A stretch of DNA of 64,000 bases from Bacteroidaceae bacterium. GTDB taxonomy: Bacteria; Bacteroidota; Bacteroidia; Bacteroidales; Bacteroidaceae. This document shows positions 28,830-37,460 of this stretch, piece by piece (within the stretch, counting starts at the first letter, position 1; the number at the start of each line of letters is the position of its first letter). A program made the translations under genes and the position numbers. The notes beneath the pieces were generated by a model. It was not told where the DNA came from. It saw only the letters and a list, made by a program, of their open reading frames with translations, and made no database searches. The stretch is from positions 23,813 to 87,812 of the forward strand of contig JAFQUE010000009.1 of assembly GCA_017408685.1 (NCBI GenBank), in the 5' to 3' direction.

Positions 28830-30122
28830 TCAGGTTTGTTTTCTTAATGTAAAGTCGAATCTGAGACCACCGCCCGGGCGGTTGGTGACGGTTATGTTGC
28901 CTCCGTGGAACTGGACGGCGTGTTTTACTATGGCAAGGCCTAACCCTGTACCGCCTTTCTGGCGGGAGCGTCCTTTGTCAATGCGGTAGAACCGCTCAAA
29001 AAGGCGGGGCAGTTGTTCTGCCTTGACGCCTTTGCCGTCATCCTCAAATCGGATACGGCACAATTTCCCGTTGTTTTCAAGTAACGATATATAGATGTTC
29101 CTACCTTCCGAATAGGCTATGGCATTTTCAGTCAGGTTGCGGAAAATGGAACCTATCAATGAGGGATTGCCGTCGACTATGACTTTTTCGCCAAAATCCG
29201 CATGCAGTGTCAAGTGTTCTTCCTCTGGCATTATCTTCAGTTCCTCGGCAACCTCATCAATTATTTCGTTTATTATTACCTTCTCTCGATTAATCAGTGT
29301 GCTTCCGTCTTCCATGCGGGTAATAAGCGACACATCGTTAAGCAGCCTGCGAAGGCGCTCATTCTGGGTGTAGCACCGCTCAATAAGTTCCTGACGTTTC
29401 TCCTCACTCAATGTAATTCCTGATAATAATGTTTCAAGGCAGACTTGAATAGATGCGACAGGGGTCTTCAGTTCGTGGTTGATGTTGTTTGTAAGTTGCC
29501 GTTTGAGGCGGCTCTTCTCCTGTTCTGCTTCATAATTGTTGACACGTTCAATGTCCTTGCCAAGTTTACGGGTACTGAAATAAGCAGCCACGCTCATAAT
29601 CAGGGTTATTGAAATCATTACAACAAGGAATGACCAATCTGCTTCAAGTAGGTCATTTAGTGTGCTTGAATAGGGTATGGCTGTGCGGACAACGACTCGT
29701 TCGCCACGGGTCGCAGAGTAGAAATACTCTCGCCCGTCACTTGTCGATAGTCGGCTTATATTATAGCTATGACCTTTTATAAGAGCATTTGCTACTTCAG
29801 GGCGGTATCTGTGGTTGTCGAGCGAGTCGAGTGAGATGGTGTTGTCGTAAACCACAGCACCGGAAAGAGTGATAATCGATATTCGCAGCTCGTCAAAAGG
29901 TTTGTCGTGAGTTGCAATGTAATCCTCATATGGCAACCCCTCCTCCACAGTGTCGAGCAGGTGGCGGTTGTATTGTTGGAGTTGTGCATTCAGGAACTCC
30001 GATTTATACTCTTTCTCGCGCAGATACTGGAATCCGATAAAACAGAGTACAATCGCCCACGAAAAAGCGAGCAACATCAGAAACAGCCGTTTATGAAACG
30101 ATATTTTAATCCCTGAAGCCAT
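28830..30122 (-). CDS. phoR: Sensor histidine kinase, PhoR-like
   Basis: 430 residues. Membrane helix at about 11-32, a ~125-residue periplasmic sensor region (YRPEVANALIKGHSYN...SATRGERVVVRT), second helix at about 163-183, then HisKA with NNINHELKTPVAS (phospho-His216), and HATPase_c with NLTENAIAYS (N box), FEDDGKGV (G1) and GGTGLGLAIVK (G2). Autophosphorylates and passes phosphate to the response regulator. The gene overlaps the response regulator by 17 bp and lies divergent to phosphate uptake genes, so phosphate control is a strong inference, not proven by sequence. Confidence 0.93.
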   Translation of the reverse strand: MASGIKISFHKRLFLMLLAFSWAIVLCFIGFQYLREKEYKSEFLNAQLQQYNRHLLDTVEEGLPYEDYIATHDKPFDELRISIITLSGAVVYDNTISLDSLDNHRYRPEVANALIKGHSYNISRLSTSDGREYFYSATRGERVVVRTAIPYSSTLNDLLEADWSFLVVMISITLIMSVAAYFSTRKLGKDIERVNNYEAEQEKSRLKRQLTNNINHELKTPVASIQVCLETLLSGITLSEEKRQELIERCYTQNERLRRLLNDVSLITRMEDGSTLINREKVIINEIIDEVAEELKIMPEEEHLTLHADFGEKVIVDGNPSLIGSIFRNLTENAIAYSEGRNIYISLLENNGKLCRIRFEDDGKGVKAEQLPRLFERFYRIDKGRSRQKGGTGLGLAIVKHAVQFHGGNITVTNRPGGGLRFDFTLRKQT

Positions 30123-30807
30123 AACCGAAACCTGAACGGGTTACTATGTATGAGCCGTATGCCCCTATCTTTGAGCGCAAACGGGTTATATTCACATCAA
30201 TGGTGCGGTCTAACACAACCACCTCATCGCTCCACACACGACTCAGTATCTGTTCGCGTGAACATATCTTGCCACGGTGCTGAATCAAGTATGCAAGTAA
30301 CTCAAACTCTTTTCGTGCCAACTTGACCTCCTCGCCGTCCACCGTACAACGCTTGAACTCCAAATCAAGGCATAGACCATCAATTGCTAATCGGTTTGGC
30401 TTTTCGGTAGGGGTATTAATCTTGCTTTTCTGGTTGGCGGTACGGCGTAAGACGCTCTTGACGCGTGCTATGACGTTACGGACGGTGTATGGTTTCATTA
30501 TATAATCATCGGCACCAAGGTTCAGTCCCATAATCATGTCATCCTCTGTATCGCGTGCCGTGCAGAATATTATGGGAATGTCGGCTGTCGCGACATCGGC
30601 TTTCAGCAACTTGGCCATCTTTATACCGCTGATTTCGCCCATCATTATATCAAGCAGAATGAGCGAATACTCTTTAAGGTTATAGCCAAGTGCCTGTTCT
30701 GCACTGAAGGCAATGTCCACATCATACCCTTCATTTTCAAGGTTTAGTTTCAGCACCTCACACAGGGTCTCCTCATCATCTACTATCAATATACGATTTG
30801 TTGCCAT
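30106..30807 (-). CDS. phoB: OmpR/PhoB-family response regulator
   Basis: 233 residues from MATNRILIVDDEE; an ATG two codons upstream (30813) is also possible. Receiver domain with Asp10/Asp11 acidic pocket, phospho-acceptor Asp53 (LILLDIMM) and Lys105 (DYIMKPYTV); C-terminal winged-helix DNA-binding domain with ARKEFELLAYLIQHRGKICSR cut here to its core KEFELLAYL, VVLDRTIDVNITRLRSKI (recognition helix) and GFGYGF. Expected to activate the phosphate genes on the other side of the shared 187-bp intergenic region and at 32.8 kb, where paired TTATGAAA repeats occur. Confidence 0.93.
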   Translation of the reverse strand: MATNRILIVDDEETLCEVLKLNLENEGYDVDIAFSAEQALGYNLKEYSLILLDIMMGEISGIKMAKLLKADVATADIPIIFCTARDTEDDMIMGLNLGADDYIMKPYTVRNVIARVKSVLRRTANQKSKINTPTEKPNRLAIDGLCLDLEFKRCTVDGEEVKLARKEFELLAYLIQHRGKICSREQILSRVWSDEVVVLDRTIDVNITRLRSKIGAYGSYIVTRSGFGYGFRD

Positions 30808-30830
30808 ATACATCTTCTATAATTACATTG

Positions 30831-30838
30831 CAAATGTA
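30831..30838 (-). promoter_or_regulatory. -7 box for phoBR
   Basis: TACATTTG on the minus strand, 24 bp before the phoB ATG. No TTTG at the proper -33 distance. The divergent nptA promoter with its repeat pair lies about 100 bp away in the same intergenic region. Confidence 0.5.
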
Positions 30839-30932
30839 AAGCGTTTTTCCGAGTGTTTTGCTACCCGGAAACATATTTAATGAAAATGTAATATTTTGCT
30901 CGATATTGCAGGATTTAACCAAAGCCTAATCA

Positions 30933-30970
30933 TTATGAAATATTTATGAAACAATATTTTAATTCCTTTG
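30933..30970 (+). promoter_or_regulatory. Candidate Pho-box promoter for the Na/Pi cotransporter gene
   Basis: TTATGAAA at 30933-30940 and again at 30944-30951, an 11-bp period (one helical turn), followed after exactly 11 bp by TTCCTTTG (30963-30970), a partial -7 box. There is no good -33 element. The ATG is at 30995. E. coli PhoB binds 11-bp-spaced direct repeats that replace the -35 box, and the layout here is the same. The same spacing occurs at 32828-32865. Confidence 0.65.
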
Positions 30971-30994
30971 TGACCGAAAAGTTATATAAGTTTT

Positions 30995-32731
30995 ATGGGT
31001 ATATTACAAATCTTTACATTGTTGGGAGCATTGGGAATGTTCCTGTATGGAATGAACCTGATGAGCTCCGGACTGCAAAAGGCTGCGGGTGAGAGGCTAA
31101 GAGGTTTTTTGTCGGCAATGACTTCAAACCCATTAAAGGGGGTCATGACCGGATTGGGTATAACGACTGTTATTCAATCTTCATCAGCCACTACTGTAAT
31201 GGTAGTAAGTTTTGTGAATGCCGGTCTTTTGACCCTGGCGCAGGCCATCGGAGTTATTATGGGTGCCAATATCGGTACGACGGTGACTGCGTGGCTGGTA
31301 TCGTGGTTGGGCTTCAAGGCCGACATTTCTGTCCTGGCTGTGCCTTTGATGTTGCTTGGCTTTCTGTTCTCAAACTCTAAAAAAGATCAACGAAAGAATA
31401 TTGGAGAACTGATTGTTGGCTTCAGCCTCTTGTTTCTCGGTCTTTCATTTATGAAAGATTCCGTGCCCGATTTGAGAGAGACACCGCAGGTACTTGAGTT
31501 TGTCAGTACTTGGTCTTCGCATGGTTTCGGTTCTGTGCTTCTGTTCCTTACATTCGGAACGCTCTTGACACTTGTGCTGCAATCTTCATCTGCAACTATG
31601 GCTATTACGCTGATTATGCTAAGTATGGGCTGGATTCCGTTTGACATGGCATGTGCTATGGTGCTTGGAGAGAATATTGGAACAACCATTACGGCGAACA
31701 TTGCCGCTTCGGTAGGTAACACACCTGCAAAACGTGCAGCAATGTCGCATACCATCTTTAATGTGTTTGGTGTTATATGGGCTTTGATTCTCTTCAAACC
31801 TTTCCTGCAGTTGGTAGGTGTAATTACCGAGAATCTGTTTGGCTTGCCTAATCCCGCAACTGATGGTTTCGTGGTGACGGACTCGGCGTCTGCAACTGGC
31901 ACAGCTGCACTGTATGGCCTATCAATGCTGCATACGCTATTTAATTTGACTAATACTTTATTATTGATATGGTTCACAAAATGGATTGCCAGGGCGGTTA
32001 GTTGGATTATACCGGTTCCAAAGAATCAAGATAAAGAGGTTTATCGTCTCCAATACATCTCTGCAGGTCCTCTTGCAACTCCAGAACTGTCAGTCGAGCA
32101 GGCATTCAACGAAATTATCCAGTTTGCAAGAATCTCCAAGAAGGGTGTTGATTATGCACATAGCGCAATCAAGAAGGCCGATACCGATGAATTCGAGGAG
32201 TTTAGAAAGAAACTCGTGAAATATGAGGAGATTTCTGACCGTATCGAATATGAGATAGCTACATTCCTCAATGGCGTGTCTGCCGAGGAAATAAGCGAGA
32301 GCACTTCCATAAAGATAAAGGCCATGTATAAGATTATTGGTGAATTGGAGTCGTTGGGAGATTCCGGTGAGGCTATCAGCCGCATTCTGTCAAGAAAGAA
32401 TATACATAATAAGCATTTTGATGAAGAGACGATAAGGAATCTTACCCTAATGGCCGATGCTGTAAGTATGGCATACGATGTCATGATTGAGAATCTGACG
32501 ATGGCTCATAAGAATGAACTTGTCGATATTGCGAATGCTTATAGTGCCGAGGAACATCTCAATGCTTTGCGGAACAATCTTCGTGATGCGGTTATTGAGA
32601 ATATTGAAAACGACGGCAAGAACTACCAGACAAGTGTTTACTATATGGATATTGTCAATGAGTTTGAGCATATGGGCGACTTTATAATTAATGTGTCACA
32701 AGACCTCGAACGGGCATTTGTCCATAAATAA
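30995..32731 (+). CDS. Na/Pi cotransporter family protein with C-terminal PhoU domain
   Basis: 578 residues. Inner-membrane sodium-coupled phosphate carrier of the NptA/YjbB type. Two inverted Na_Pi_cotrans repeats, each with the QSSSATT/QSSSATM signature (about residues 61-67 and 197-203) and following GANIGTT / GENIGTT. About nine membrane helices up to residue ~345, then a soluble PhoU-like region (about 370-575: LSVEQAFNEIIQFARISKKGV, IKIKAMYKIIGELESLGDS, DIVNEFEHMGDFIINV) with the acidic metal-binding pattern ExxxD. No separate phoU gene accompanies pst here. Controlled by a probable Pho box. Confidence 0.94.
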   Translation: MGILQIFTLLGALGMFLYGMNLMSSGLQKAAGERLRGFLSAMTSNPLKGVMTGLGITTVIQSSSATTVMVVSFVNAGLLTLAQAIGVIMGANIGTTVTAWLVSWLGFKADISVLAVPLMLLGFLFSNSKKDQRKNIGELIVGFSLLFLGLSFMKDSVPDLRETPQVLEFVSTWSSHGFGSVLLFLTFGTLLTLVLQSSSATMAITLIMLSMGWIPFDMACAMVLGENIGTTITANIAASVGNTPAKRAAMSHTIFNVFGVIWALILFKPFLQLVGVITENLFGLPNPATDGFVVTDSASATGTAALYGLSMLHTLFNLTNTLLLIWFTKWIARAVSWIIPVPKNQDKEVYRLQYISAGPLATPELSVEQAFNEIIQFARISKKGVDYAHSAIKKADTDEFEEFRKKLVKYEEISDRIEYEIATFLNGVSAEEISESTSIKIKAMYKIIGELESLGDSGEAISRILSRKNIHNKHFDEETIRNLTLMADAVSMAYDVMIENLTMAHKNELVDIANAYSAEEHLNALRNNLRDAVIENIENDGKNYQTSVYYMDIVNEFEHMGDFIINVSQDLERAFVHK

Positions 32732-32754
32732 GCATCTTGGATGAATATAATAAG

Positions 32755-32798
32755 GATTGTGTTGCTCTTTGTATGCGAAGGGTGACACAATCTTTTTT
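32755..32798 (+). terminator. Terminator of the Na/Pi cotransporter gene
   Basis: Stem GATTGTGT (32755-32762) / ACACAATC (32785-32792), an inner CTCTT/AAGGG pairing with G-U wobble, and six Ts at 32793-32798. It separates this gene from the pst operon promoter 30 bp further on. Confidence 0.75.
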
Positions 32799-32827
32799 GT
32801 ATATGTCATTTAATGAATCTCTAATTC

Positions 32828-32865
32828 TTTTGAAACGTTTATGAAATGTATAGCCGATATTTTTG
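32828..32865 (+). promoter_or_regulatory. Candidate Pho-box promoter for the porin-pst operon
   Basis: TTTTGAAA at 32828-32835 and TTATGAAA at 32839-32846 (11-bp period), then 11 bp, then TATTTTTG at 32858-32865, a perfect TAnnTTTG -7 box. The porin ATG is at 32895, 29 bp after the -7 box. The geometry repeats that at 30933-30970 to the base. It also rules out an ATG at 32841 as the porin start, because that lies inside the promoter. Confidence 0.72.
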
Positions 32866-32894
32866 CAGTGTCAAATTTTAGAAGACAAAAGACT

Positions 32895-33875
32895 ATGAAA
32901 ACAAAACTGATTTTGGCGGGTGTTTTAGCCTGCATCGGTATCGGCACACAGGCGCAGGATACCAAAACAGAGGAGCCTAAAGGCAAAGCGATTGTTCAGG
33001 TGTTCGGCAATTTCCACACGGGGTTTGGAACAGATAATGACGACCGTGGCTTTGAGTTGGAACGCAGTTATCTGGGTTACGAGTACAATTTCGGCAAGGG
33101 CCTTTCGGTTAAAGGAGTTATGGATATCGGCAAGTCTTCAAACATTAATGATTATCAGCGTATTGCCTATATCAAGAATGCACTGGTACAGTGGAAGAGC
33201 GGAAACCTCACGCTCTCCGGCGGTCTTATCTCTACCACCCAGTTCAACTTTCAGGAGAAATTTTGGGGTTATCGCTACATTATGAAGTCTTTTCAGGATG
33301 AGTACAAATTCGGTAGCAGTGCCGATTTAGGTCTCTCTGTGGCCTACAGATTCGCCGATTGGGTATCTGCCGACGCAATCATTGTGAATGGCGAGGGGTA
33401 CAAGAAAATTCAGAAAGTTGATGGACTCAATTACGGTCTTGGTGTAACACTTACTCCTGTTAAGGGTTTCCAGGTTCGCGTGTATGGAGGATTGAATGAG
33501 AGTGGTGAAGAGGGTAAAAAAGATATTGCTAATCTGGCAGCATTTATAGGGTACAAGCATAAGAGGTTTGCGCTTGGAGCAGAGTATAACCAAATGTGGA
33601 ATGCTTCGTACAAGGACGGTGCCGACCAAAACGGTTATTCGGTTTTTGCCTCGGTCAAGTTGTCCAGGATTGCAGACATCTATGCCCGTTTTGATGACTT
33701 GTATTCTAAAAATGATTGGAATATTGCAAAAGATGAGCAGGCTGCTATTCTCGGTGCTCAATTCAAACTCGGCAAGTATGTGAAGATTGCCCCTAATTTC
33801 AGGTTGACAGTACCAAAGGCTGACGGAGCGAAGAACGGATATTATGCCTACGTGAATTGTTATTTCGGGTTTTAA
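32895..33875 (+). CDS. Outer-membrane phosphate-selective porin (OprP/OprO-like)
   Basis: 326 residues from the ATG at 32895 with signal peptide MKTKLILAGVLACIGIGTQAQ. The mature protein is a beta-barrel: alternating amphipathic strands (GKAIVQVFGNFHTGFG, GFELERSYLGYEYNFGKGLSVKG, KNALVQWKSGNLTLSGGL) and a terminal strand ending in the aromatic FGF. Pattern and context (first gene before pstSCAB, behind a Pho box) point to a phosphate-selective porin. Family membership is clear at the level of barrel porins; ion selectivity is inferred from context. 32 bp before pstS. Confidence 0.82.
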   Translation: MKTKLILAGVLACIGIGTQAQDTKTEEPKGKAIVQVFGNFHTGFGTDNDDRGFELERSYLGYEYNFGKGLSVKGVMDIGKSSNINDYQRIAYIKNALVQWKSGNLTLSGGLISTTQFNFQEKFWGYRYIMKSFQDEYKFGSSADLGLSVAYRFADWVSADAIIVNGEGYKKIQKVDGLNYGLGVTLTPVKGFQVRVYGGLNESGEEGKKDIANLAAFIGYKHKRFALGAEYNQMWNASYKDGADQNGYSVFASVKLSRIADIYARFDDLYSKNDWNIAKDEQAAILGAQFKLGKYVKIAPNFRLTVPKADGAKNGYYAYVNCYFGF

Positions 33876-33907: not shown

Positions 33908-34969
33908 ATGAGAAAGATTTTTTCATCAGTCGTGACATTGGCTGTTGCCCTTGCAATGATTGCTTGTGGCGGTAATTCCAATAAGATAGGTCGTGAATCC
34001 CAGGAACTTGCCGGTGCCGGTGCTACATTCCCTCTTCCGTTCTACAATGTGGTGTTCGAGCAGTTCGGACAAGTGAATGGCGACCAGGTTGCATACGGTG
34101 GCATAGGTTCTGGTGGTGGAGTGCGGAACTTGCGCGACAAAATTGTCGATTTTGCCGGCAGTGATGCTTTCCTCTCTGACAAAGAGTTGGCCGAGATGGC
34201 TCCAGTAGTGCATGTACCGACCTGTATGGGTGCTGTCGTCCTTGCATATAATCTTGATGGAGTCAATGAATTGAAATTATCAGGTGAGATTATCGCAGAT
34301 ATCTTTGCCGGTAATATCAAGATGTGGAACGATGAACGTCTGGTGGCGCTCAATCCTGATGTAGAACTTCCGGCTGAGGCAATTATCCCTGTATATCGTT
34401 CAGATGGCTCGGGTACGACATTCGTTTTTACCGATTACCTTACGAAGGTCAGTCCAATGTGGGCTTTGGAATATGGTGCAGGTAAATCCGTTGACTTCCC
34501 GTCGGGTCAGGCTGCAAAGGGTAATCCTGGCGTGGCAGGTGTCATCAAGCAGACAAAGAATACAATCGGCTATGTTGGTTCGGAGTATGCCTTTGCACAG
34601 AAAATACCTTATGCACATATTGAGAATCAACGAGGCGAGTTTGTCCTGCCATCATCGGAAACAATCTCGGCAGCAGCGTCGGGCGAAATACCTGCCGATA
34701 CCCGCTGCTCGATTACAAATTCTGTTGCGGTCGGCGCATATCCCATTTCAACCTTCACGTGGATGATTATCTACAAGGAGCAGAACTACTCTGACCGTAC
34801 AAGAGAACAGGCAGAGGCTACACTCGACCTTCTGAGATACATCCTCTCGGACGAGGCGCAACATATTACATCTGAGGTGCATTATGCTCCGCTACCCGCC
34901 AAGGCCAAGGAGTTGAGTATGGAGAATCTGAAGACCGTCACATATGATGGAGTCTCAATACTGCAATAA
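33908..34969 (+). CDS. pstS: Phosphate-binding lipoprotein of the Pst ABC transporter
   Basis: 353 residues; lipoprotein signal peptide with lipidated Cys20 (LAMIACGG). Captures phosphate in the periplasm and delivers it to PstCA. PstS features: GAGATFPLPFYNVVFEQF, YGGIGSGGGVRNL, DFAGSDAFLSD, FAGNIKMWND, and the phosphate-contacting SDGSGTTFVFTDYL, plus GNPGVAGVIKQTKNTIGYVGSEYA in part. Lipid anchoring is common for PstS outside the Enterobacteria. Start of the pstSCAB set, 9 bp before pstC. Confidence 0.97.
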   Translation: MRKIFSSVVTLAVALAMIACGGNSNKIGRESQELAGAGATFPLPFYNVVFEQFGQVNGDQVAYGGIGSGGGVRNLRDKIVDFAGSDAFLSDKELAEMAPVVHVPTCMGAVVLAYNLDGVNELKLSGEIIADIFAGNIKMWNDERLVALNPDVELPAEAIIPVYRSDGSGTTFVFTDYLTKVSPMWALEYGAGKSVDFPSGQAAKGNPGVAGVIKQTKNTIGYVGSEYAFAQKIPYAHIENQRGEFVLPSSETISAAASGEIPADTRCSITNSVAVGAYPISTFTWMIIYKEQNYSDRTREQAEATLDLLRYILSDEAQHITSEVHYAPLPAKAKELSMENLKTVTYDGVSILQ

Positions 34970-34978
34970 CAGAACATC

Positions 34979-35836
34979 ATGAACGATAAGTTATACAAAA
35001 TCCTGCTGTTCGCGGCTGCATTGATAATGCCGATAGTGTGCGGGGGCGTAGTCTACGCCCTCGTCACTGACGCATACGATGCGTTCGAGCATTTCGGGTT
35101 CTTTAAGTTTCTGACCTCATCGGAGTGGAGTTACACCGAGGGAGCGGAGCAGTATGGTGCGCTGCCGTTCATTACAGGCACGTTGATGACAACCATGTTG
35201 GCACTCCTCTTTTGCATACCGTTCTCACTGCCTGTGGCGCTGTTTGTCGGGGAATACTTCAAAGGCACAAAGGTGGCTTCTGTTTTAAGTACTGTCACCG
35301 ACCTTTTGGCAGGTATCCCTTCAATCATCTATGGTTTGTGGGGCTTCTACACTTTGCGTCCTCTGATTATGGAACTCGATATTTCGCCGCAGGGCTCGGG
35401 CATATTGACCGCCTCGCTGGTGTTGGCCATTATGATTGTACCTTATGCCGCCTCGCTCAGTGCGGAGTTCATAAAAATGGTCCCCAATGATTTGAAAGAG
35501 GGTGCGTATAGTCTGGGAGCAACTCGTGCCGAGGTTATCCGTAAGGTGGTATTTCCCGTTGCCGGTTCGGGTATCTTCTCATCGTATGTCCTGGCGATTG
35601 GTCGTGCATTGGGCGAGACAATGACCGTAACAATGCTTATCGGCAACACGAACAATATCCCGGATTCAATAACATCTACGGGTAACTCAATGGCGTCAAT
35701 TATCGCTAACCAATTCGGTGAGGCAGATGATTTACGCCTCTCGTCACTGATTGCCATAGGCCTGATACTGTTCCTTATTACGGCATTTATCAATCTTATA
35801 GGCAAAATGATGATTAAACGAGCAAGAATAGCATAA
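34979..35836 (+). CDS. pstC: Phosphate ABC transporter permease PstC
   Basis: 285 residues with six predicted membrane helices. Forms the channel with PstA. BPD-transporter-like signature ALGETMTVTMLIGN (EAA-loop type region VPNDLKEGAYSLGATRAEVIRKVV precedes it), and LLAGIPSIIYGLWGF, the segment typical of PstC. The order S-C-A-B and 2-bp gap to pstA are standard. Confidence 0.95.
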   Translation: MNDKLYKILLFAAALIMPIVCGGVVYALVTDAYDAFEHFGFFKFLTSSEWSYTEGAEQYGALPFITGTLMTTMLALLFCIPFSLPVALFVGEYFKGTKVASVLSTVTDLLAGIPSIIYGLWGFYTLRPLIMELDISPQGSGILTASLVLAIMIVPYAASLSAEFIKMVPNDLKEGAYSLGATRAEVIRKVVFPVAGSGIFSSYVLAIGRALGETMTVTMLIGNTNNIPDSITSTGNSMASIIANQFGEADDLRLSSLIAIGLILFLITAFINLIGKMMIKRARIA

Positions 35837-35838
35837 CT

Positions 35839-36705
35839 ATGAATAAATCGAAAATCAGAAATCGTTTGGCAAAAGATAAGGCGTTGCTGTGGGCTGTATG
35901 CCTACTGGCCGCACTTACGGCTGTTCCTCTGTTTGCCATTTTGGGAGAGGTGTTTATGCGTGGCTATGACCAACTCTCGTGGTCGTTCTTTACGGAACCT
36001 ACACCAACTGCGTACAAGGCCATGAAAGCAATAGAGGCCGGCGAGCCCATTCCCGGCGGTATTGCAAACGGAATTGTGGGAACAATGCTTATGCTTGGTA
36101 TGGCTGCCGTTGTGGCAATTCCTATAGGAATCCTTTGCGGTGCATTTCTGGCGGAGAATCCCAAGAACAGGTTTGCCCAAACCGTAAGTTATCTTACCGA
36201 CCTGTTGCAAGGAACACCTTCGGTCATTATTGGTATTGTAGTCTATATATGGGTGGTTGTACCTATGAAAGGTTACTCGGCCATTGCAGGCAGTGTGGCA
36301 CTCTTCATTATGATGTTGCCGCTCATTATCCGTTCAACCGAGGAGACATTGAAGATTTTGCCTGCGTCGCTCAAGGAGGCGGGGTTGGCTCTCGGCGGCA
36401 ACCGTGCCCGTGTAATGCTTAAAGTACAGCTCCCCGCGGCTTTCGGTGGTATCTTCACGGGTGTTTTGCTGGCTATCTCACGTGTAATCGGTGAGACGGC
36501 CCCGCTTATGTTCACTGCGCTCGGTTGCTCGTTTATCCGCTTTGCGGTTGACAAACCGATATCTGCGGTACCTCTGCTTATATGGGAGTTCTTCAACGAC
36601 CCCAACCTGCAGGAACTCATTTGGGGAGCCTCGCTCTTCCTCTTGTTGTTTGTTTTAACTTTGAATCTTTTATCTAAGTATCTTGCAAAGAAATGGAACC
36701 AGTAA
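35839..36705 (+). CDS. pstA: Phosphate ABC transporter permease PstA
   Basis: 288 residues, six membrane helices. Partner of PstC. Shows GGIANGIVGTMLML, LLQGTPSVIIGIVVYIW, the coupling region LPASLKEAGLALGGNRARVMLKV and ISRVIGETAPLMFTALG, all characteristic of PstA. Its 3' end overlaps pstB by 13 bp. Confidence 0.95.
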   Translation: MNKSKIRNRLAKDKALLWAVCLLAALTAVPLFAILGEVFMRGYDQLSWSFFTEPTPTAYKAMKAIEAGEPIPGGIANGIVGTMLMLGMAAVVAIPIGILCGAFLAENPKNRFAQTVSYLTDLLQGTPSVIIGIVVYIWVVVPMKGYSAIAGSVALFIMMLPLIIRSTEETLKILPASLKEAGLALGGNRARVMLKVQLPAAFGGIFTGVLLAISRVIGETAPLMFTALGCSFIRFAVDKPISAVPLLIWEFFNDPNLQELIWGASLFLLLFVLTLNLLSKYLAKKWNQ

Positions 36706-37460
36706 CACCAATACTTGAATTCAATAAGACTTGTGTATCATATACCAAGCAGACAATGGCAGTAAAGTATGTATCGGCAGCCATTGACAGAAACACGATA
36801 ACTGCCATAATGGGCCCCTCGGGCTGTGGAAAATCCACCCTATTGAGGGCTGTGAACCTAATGCACAACCTCTATCCGAATATCCGTGTCGATGGCGAAA
36901 TTCTGTTGAATGGCGAGAATATCCTCTCAATGGAACCAATCGATGTACGTCGCCGTGTGGGCATGGTCTTTCAACGTCCTGCGCCGTTCCCCACTATGAG
37001 CATATACGATAATGTGCTTTCGGGTTATGCGCTCAACGGTATCCGTTTGTCGAAAACCGAAAAAGATGAAACCGTTGAACGTTGCTTGAAGAGCGTAGCA
37101 CTGTGGGATGAGGTCAAGGATGTCCTGAACAAGAAAGGTACATTCCTTTCGGGTGGTCAGCAGCAGCGTCTGTGTATTGCACGTGCATTGGCCATGAAAC
37201 CCGATGTGCTGTTGATGGACGAGCCGACATCGGCACTCGACCCCATTGCAACGGCGCATATCGAGGAACTGATGTCGGAACTTCAAAACAAGGTGACAAT
37301 CCTTATCGTTACCCACAATATGGGTCAGGCAATGCGAATATCCTCAAAGTCGATGTTTATGTACCTTGGCGAGTTGGTTGAGTATGGTGATACCGCGACG
37401 ATGTTCTCCAACCCCTCGGATGAGCGAACCAAAGCCTACCTCACCGGCAAGATGGGATAA
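36693..37460 (+). CDS. pstB: Phosphate ABC transporter ATP-binding protein
   Basis: 255 residues. Cytoplasmic ATPase driving PstSCA. Walker A GPSGCGKST at residues 41-49, Q-loop MVFQRPAPFPTMSIYDNV, signature LSGGQQQRLCIARAL, Walker B VLLMDEPTSALDP and the switch His in VTHNMGQAMR. The order pstSCAB ends here; there is no phoU after it, only 17 bp to the convergent ccsBA gene. The PhoU function may be supplied by the PhoU domain of the Na/Pi carrier. Confidence 0.97.
   Translation: MEPVTPILEFNKTCVSYTKQTMAVKYVSAAIDRNTITAIMGPSGCGKSTLLRAVNLMHNLYPNIRVDGEILLNGENILSMEPIDVRRRVGMVFQRPAPFPTMSIYDNVLSGYALNGIRLSKTEKDETVERCLKSVALWDEVKDVLNKKGTFLSGGQQQRLCIARALAMKPDVLLMDEPTSALDPIATAHIEELMSELQNKVTILIVTHNMGQAMRISSKSMFMYLGELVEYGDTATMFSNPSDERTKAYLTGKMG

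Follow-up and report, generated by a model that had tools for sequence, protein, structure and literature searches.

How are two phosphate-gene promoters of a Bacteroidales bacterium recognised when neither carries a -33 box? The question is raised by a 64,000-nucleotide (nt) stretch of a Bacteroidaceae genome (contig JAFQUE010000009.1; hereafter the window), in which a Na/Pi cotransporter gene and a porin-like gene followed by pstSCAB lie beside phoBR and each transcription unit is preceded by a pair of 8-bp direct repeats. A preliminary description had proposed these pairs as a Pho box, the operator of the response regulator PhoB. The present analysis indicates that the repeats are very probably the two promoter-proximal half-sites of a longer, four-unit Pho box, a predicted PhoB operator that would replace the -33 box.

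Two phosphate-gene promoters with direct repeats in place of a -33 box

The repeat TTATGAAA is found at positions 30933–30940 and 30944–30951, upstream of the Na/Pi cotransporter gene, and upstream of the porin-like gene TTTTGAAA at 32828–32835 is followed by TTATGAAA at 32839–32846. These are the positions given in the preliminary description (30933, 30944, 32828 and 32839), and its spacing of 11 bp between the second repeat and an 8-bp -7 element was likewise confirmed at both promoters (30963–30970 and 32858–32865). The primary-sigma promoter of Bacteroidota consists of a -7 element, TAnnTTTG, and a -33 element, TTTG (PMC7366714). The porin -7 element fits this pattern; that of the Na/Pi promoter, TTCCTTTG, matches five of the six fixed letters, so that the proposed -7 boxes hold for the porin promoter and fail, at the Na/Pi promoter, against the search pattern suggested along with them. 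That pattern, written with TANNTTTG, gave a single match in the genome, the porin site, and missed the Na/Pi site because its -7 element is TTCCTTTG; it was loosened to TNNNTTTG. As had been claimed, both promoters lack a -33 box: inspection revealed no TTTG 17–23 bp before either -7 box, and the sole TTTG within 31 bp upstream of either one lies inside the first porin repeat, at a spacer of 25. The genes concerned are the following.

30995..32731, + strand: Na/Pi cotransporter with a PhoU domain, first target (TIGR00704, 240.5 bits against a cut-off of 210.1; PF02690 and PF01895)
32895..33875, + strand: porin-like outer-membrane protein, first gene of the pst operon and second target (porin label from sequence character alone)
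33908..37460, + strand: pstS, pstC, pstA and pstB, in an operon without phoU (pstS, pstC and pstA above their NCBIfam cut-offs)
30106..30813, - strand: phoB response regulator, the proposed binder (NF053854 RespRegPhoBBctds, 340.2 bits against a cut-off of 270)
28830..30122, - strand: phoR sensor kinase (best NCBIfam match NF053855 PhoR, 437.5 bits, below the cut-off of 500)

The two targets are therefore phosphate genes adjoining phoBR, as had been stated, with a regulator that passes the curated Bacteroidetes PhoB model. The sensor kinase fails the cut-off of the PhoR model, although this model is its best match, and pstB, at 340.8 bits, falls slightly below its own NCBIfam cut-off of 343.2. 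The porin-like protein matched no Pfam or NCBIfam model up to an E-value of 1; relatives of its gene sit upstream of pstS in several families.

The repeats are the proximal half of a four-unit array

Same-genus promoters were aligned from 51 sites, which had been picked for lying at the Na/Pi carrier (21) or the porin gene (30) and on which a matrix was built; 37 of them, less than 80% identical within their class, were kept. Information content peaks at four positions in exact 11-bp register, reading TTTAAC, CCTAAT, TGAAAC and TGAAAY (units A to D), followed by 10 bp and the -7 box. Conservation extends to two A's lying between A and B and to a stretch after the -7 box; in the window the bases just 3' of the porin -7 box, 32866–32878 (CAGTGTCAAATTT), are kept in many same-genus sites. 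Both window promoters contain all four units, TTTAAC/CCTAAT/TGAAAT/TGAAAC at the Na/Pi carrier and TTTAAT/TCTAAT/TGAAAC/TGAAAT at porin-pst, and were scored independently of the matrix by a strict rule demanding three or four AAY units with an 11-bp period and TTTG 14 nt past the last unit.

30914..30919, + strand: Pho unit A TTTAAC, Na/Pi carrier promoter (11-bp register; information peak in the 37 non-redundant same-genus sites; strict rule)
30925..30930, + strand: Pho unit B CCTAAT, Na/Pi carrier promoter (information peak; strict rule)
30936..30941, + strand: Pho unit C TGAAAT, Na/Pi carrier promoter (core of the repeat at 30933–30940)
30947..30952, + strand: Pho unit D TGAAAC, Na/Pi carrier promoter (core of the repeat at 30944–30951; 10 bp before the -7 box)
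30963..30970, + strand: -7 element TTCCTTTG, Na/Pi carrier promoter (five of six fixed letters of TAnnTTTG)
32809..32814, + strand: Pho unit A TTTAAT, porin-pst promoter (information peak; strict rule)
32820..32825, + strand: Pho unit B TCTAAT, porin-pst promoter (information peak; strict rule)
32831..32836, + strand: Pho unit C TGAAAC, porin-pst promoter (repeat core; information peak)
32842..32847, + strand: Pho unit D TGAAAT, porin-pst promoter (repeat core; information peak)
32858..32865, + strand: -7 element TATTTTTG, porin-pst promoter (matches TAnnTTTG)

The last unit ends 10 bp ahead of the -7 element. If this element occupies -12 to -5, as reported in Flavobacterium psychrophilum (PMC9723704), the units would start at about -61, -50, -39 and -28, and the proximal unit would cover the -33 region. 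Thus, the two-repeat operator of the preliminary description stands as the proximal half of the site and falls short as the complete site, TTATGAAA being no more than the form that the two proximal units take in this lineage. Compared across genomes, the sequences identify TGAAAC as this lineage's form of a unit that reads CTTAAC, TGTAAC or TGTCAC elsewhere in Bacteroidota.

The array is specific to phosphate genes

The genome containing the window comprises 2.25 Mb of sequence and is an estimated 86% complete. In it, the exact tandem TTNTGAAA-N3-TTNTGAAA has two matches, both in the window promoters; seven matches are found when one mismatch is allowed, and one with the reversed pattern. When the tandem was combined with the -7 box (T-N3-TTTG), 27 exact matches were recovered in 20 of 44 same-genus genomes, with none for the reversed control, and every one of the 27 immediately precedes the Na/Pi carrier gene (8) or porin-pstS (19). 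A spread over unrelated promoters, which would have spoken against the preliminary proposal, is accordingly not observed.

With up to two mismatches the same 44 genomes yielded 73 matches, against 6 in the control. The surroundings of 40 of the 46 inexact matches were fetched; three of the other six are already known Na/Pi sites. Fourteen of the 16 one-mismatch matches lie at the porin or Na/Pi genes, one at a TonB-dependent receptor gene and one at a gene without a phosphate link. The 24 two-mismatch matches comprise five at porin or Na/Pi genes, two at PHO4-family permeases that score over the PF01384 cut-off, and 17 at neither, which look like noise. At the receptor site (L078, in genome G030), a Pho box with one mismatch lies 22 nt ahead of the gene, and the porin-pst operon is 4 kb away; the encoded TonB-dependent protein has a carboxypeptidase-regulatory domain and is a possible outer-membrane phosphorus receptor. 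Across 393 genomes of the order, the exact pattern had 10 matches outside the window and one in the control; seven of the 10 precede porin-pstS, one a Na/Pi carrier, one a PiT-like permease (judged by eye only) and one an unrelated gene.

A weight matrix derived from 35 relatives' sites, excluding the window sites and near-identical ones, scored the two window promoters at 61.4 and 60.9, while the next best position on either strand of the 64 kb reached -10.8 and the reversed sequence scored no higher than -16.8. The strict rule, which uses no matrix, matched exactly two places on both strands of the window, namely the two promoters with four of four units each, and none in the reversed window.

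The array recurs across Bacteroidota

The conservation in related genomes on which the preliminary description had made its proposal depend was found at three levels: the four-unit array recurs within the genus, across the order and in other Bacteroidota. Order-wide, DNA upstream of pstC was collected from 60 genomes, 58 of which offered enough sequence, and the 140 nt upstream of the operon's first gene were analysed. Counted without any matrix, TAAY pairs number 57 at a distance of 11 bp, 24 at 22 bp and 17 at 33 bp, each exceeding the maximum of 60 shuffles (24, 12 and 11, respectively); minor excesses also occur at 25 and 36 bp. These shuffles mix incompletely (mean 14.5 at 11 bp), a bias that runs against the result. 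The strict array at its fixed distance is present in 17 of the 58 regions, compared with 0–1 at thirteen other distances, 0–2 with eight other periods and 0–1 in ten shuffles. Among 3540 control stretches from the same loci, 29 contain three or more units; since these stretches may hold real sites themselves, we relied on the shuffles and on the distance and period controls. Order-wide units read CTTAAC, TGTAAC, CGTAAC and similar; the strict rule takes AAY units only, rejecting TGTCAC or CTTCAC.

In addition, contigs of named genomes were scanned with an alignment of 400-residue PstC proteins, yielding 80 loci, with B. fragilis not among them. The strict array at the fixed distance occurs in 8 of 29 Bacteroidota loci (0–2 at other distances) and in none of 50 loci from other phyla (one at another distance); one locus (L246) lies outside both groups, one with a Fibrimonadaceae title and no array (L239) is counted in Bacteroidota, and a few of the 50 have no phylum in their title. 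Sphingobacterium humi and a metagenome-assembled genome of Flavobacteriaceae are among the eight, each array ending 5–27 nt before the next open frame. In the Bacteroides timonensis pstC promoter, six units in 11-bp register are visible by eye (TGTAAC, TGTAAT, TGAAAC, TTTCAA, AGTCAC, CTTAAC), followed by 10 bp and a -7 box; of the last four, the strict rule accepts only two.

The array precedes PiT transporter genes and phoB in other lineages

The motif also recurs at phosphate genes that were not used in its discovery, namely those of PiT transporters and phoB of other lineages. For the former, 31 genomes were drawn from the genus of G208, a genome of the window's family whose PstC is 96% identical to one from Bacteroides sp. 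UBA1317, for which reason the genus is called Bacteroides-type here. Its PHO4 family comprises a long form of about 770 residues and a short form of about 340. The long form gave 24 matches, 23 of them used as loci, and the strict array precedes it in 18 of these 23, compared with none of seven short-form loci, none at other distances and 0–1 with other periods. The usual array is TGTAAC-N5-TGTAAC-N5-TGACAT-N5-TGCAAC-N10-box, and both TGTCAC and TGACAT units occur in Bacteroides-type PiT promoters. Two PiT genes from the genus of the window (L099 and L104) are likewise preceded by four strict units at this position. A PF01384 search at an E-value of 1e-20 detected the family in only one of the 44 same-genus genomes (L303) and missed the PiT genes found through the motif, which score 5.5e-19 and 2.7e-18.

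At phoB promoters, a periodicity test with lineages mixed gave no clear signal, and the lineages were then read separately. The element TTAC-N7-TTAAAT is present 60–71 nt before the start in all 14 promoters of close phoB relatives (70–100% identity) and in none of the five promoters of more distant relatives. On its opposite strand it reads TTTAAY-N5-NGTAAY, that is, two Pho-like units directed away from phoB. In the window the corresponding features are as follows.

30875..30891, - strand: phoB promoter element TTAC-N7-TTAAAT (on the + strand, two Pho-like units TTTAAT-N5-TGTAAT)
30831..30838, - strand: putative phoB -7 element TACATTTG (by eye)

Read by eye, three of the five more distant phoB promoters (G208, G301 and G302) contain a four-unit box in forward orientation, again with a gap of 10 bp; the strict rule accepts two of the five. 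A further candidate array (L322) had matched a loose script test; its other units do not fit, and it was excluded. The four-unit box at these distant promoters fits the induction of phoB at low phosphate reported in B. fragilis (PMC3547664). The recognition helix of PhoB reads RLRSKI in genomes with TGAAAC-type units and RLRKKI in most others. This difference was considered as the cause of TGAAAC versus TTAAC units and set aside, as G301 combines TGAAAC/TGTAAC units with RLRKKI.

Proposed mechanism and alternative explanations

In the mechanism that we propose, PhoB supplied by the adjacent phoBR would be phosphorylated at low phosphate and would line up head to tail along one helix face, on the four direct repeats of 11-bp period. 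The proximal unit stops 10 bp short of the -7 box, at the usual position of a -33 box; PhoB would therefore hold the sigma factor at this place and switch on the Na/Pi carrier gene and porin-pstSCAB. The repeat sequences, their period and register, the spacing, the conservation and the gene specificity are direct observations; we infer that PhoB is the protein bound there, that it activates and does not repress, and that the promoters respond to phosphate.

Several observations weigh against this reading. No exact match exists in 24 of the 44 same-genus genomes, and seven have none even at two mismatches. The tandem is missing from four of the 21 Na/Pi carrier copies of the genus that were fetched with upstream DNA, and these four and one other fail the strict rule. 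No array precedes a third PHO4 gene of this genus (L303) within about 500 nt. Only 17 of the 58 pst regions from across the order and 8 of the 29 Bacteroidota loci carry the strict array, a minority in each set, and some of the promoters that fail the rule may truly lack the box. In B. fragilis, moreover, low phosphate reduces BF4351, which is annotated as a putative Na+-dependent phosphate transporter, by 101-fold in wild-type cells and not in the phoB mutant (PMC3547664); PhoB might lower the expression of some carriers.

The leading alternative, that another OmpR/PhoB-type regulator binds the repeats, appears improbable. Regulators of this type also bind direct repeats of about 10–11 bp, and a search of 30 genomes revealed second PhoB-like proteins, with 47–56% identity, in two of them at the E-value limit applied. 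Against such a regulator, the array stands at the promoter of phoB itself in two to three of the five more distant genomes and at the kinds of genes that need phoB in B. fragilis (pst and a phosphate permease), and in the window it lies beside phoBR. Furthermore, the second-best PhoB homologue of B. fragilis is dispensable for pstC (PMC3547664).

Less probable still is a core-promoter feature, such as an AT-rich or extended -33 element that binds no regulator. The repeats are indeed AT-rich and placed where a -33 box belongs, but a core element would occur at promoters of all kinds, and against this stand the phosphate-gene specificity of all 27 exact matches, the presence of the array at long and not at short PiT genes, and its two places in the 2.25 Mb of genome sequence. 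Although short AT-rich words easily recur in intergenic DNA, a chance origin of the repeats is excluded by the reversed, shuffled, matrix, distance and period controls and by a register and spacing conserved across families.

Relation to known Pho boxes

The Pho box is already known as a kind of element. In E. coli, it consists of 8-bp repeats with 3-bp linkers located 10 bp before the -10 box (PMC1906773), is defined in 11-nt units (PMC4415409), and places PhoB over the -35 site (PMC3348028). The analogy drawn in the preliminary description, 11-bp repeats replacing the -35 box, holds for the geometry, which the window promoters share: their direct repeats recur in tandem every 11 bp, stop 10 bp short of the -7 box and overlap the -33 region. 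Unlike the E. coli box, they have TGAAAC or TTTAAC units, not CTGTCAT (PMC4415409, PMC1906773), four of which are conserved, and they belong to a Bacteroidota promoter with the TAnnTTTG element. From the primary-sigma promoter of this phylum they keep the -7 element and differ in having a Pho box where the -33 box is absent.

In its distal half, the sequence resembles the cyanobacterial SphR box, in which at least three 8-bp units CTTAACCT stand in tandem with 3-bp linkers (PMC1906773). The distal window units (TTTAAC) and the order-wide unit CTTAACAT are nearly the same word; the distal units match the cyanobacterial core TTAAC/TTAAT, and the proximal ones do not. The window box differs from the SphR box in its four units, its fixed distance to the core promoter and, in this lineage, its proximal TGAAAC. 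We lean, by a little, towards a four-unit operator ancestral to Bacteroidota, with [CT]TTAACAT-N3 repeated four times, one constant spacing to the -7 box and a unit nearly identical to the cyanobacterial one, in which the window lineage would have changed its proximal pair from TTAAC to TGAAAC and kept its distal pair. If this is so, PhoB occupancy would be a general substitute for the missing -33 contact and a template for activators working with the Bacteroidota sigma factor.

Within Bacteroidales, the nearest precedent is B. fragilis, where PhoB binds at a pst promoter and pst expression depends on this regulator. Recombinant PhoB bound a 512-bp pstC promoter fragment in an electrophoretic mobility shift assay, and, relative to the wild type at high phosphate, the phoB mutant at low phosphate had 428-fold less pstC and 52-fold less of a phosphate/sulphate permease (PMC3547664). 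Binding is known there for the 512-bp fragment, with no motif given in the accessible text; the motif described here is defined from sequence. Putative Pho boxes are marked at plcP clusters of marine bacteria including flavobacteria, again with no motif in the part of the source available (PMC4796936). No defined Bacteroidota Pho box was found in the open-licence PubMed Central literature as far as its text was accessible; subscription papers and regulon databases such as RegPrecise were not covered, and an earlier prediction may exist.

In B. fragilis, PhoB governs the uptake of phosphate and survival in abscesses; it also affects capsule genes, an effect that may be indirect (PMC3547664). 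An operator given as a consensus with strict geometry is usable for genome-wide scans, could sort direct from indirect PhoB targets, and lets one ask how an activator acts at a promoter without a -33 box.

A candidate hairpin in the porin mRNA leader of relatives

In 11 same-genus loci, the porin gene starts 92–114 nt past the -7 box instead of about 30. The leaders of these loci contain a small RNA hairpin with a loop NGCYRGC (GCUAGC or GCCGGC) and a varying stem, a candidate leader element of porin mRNAs. The motif has no match in the window or in one further locus (L061), and a scan of nine loci against Rfam returned no fitting family in the leader. Unpaired cells make up 23% of the hairpin alignment, which counts against the structure, while five of the seven pairs are changed on both sides, with 13 double-change cells, a level that none of 500 shuffles attained.

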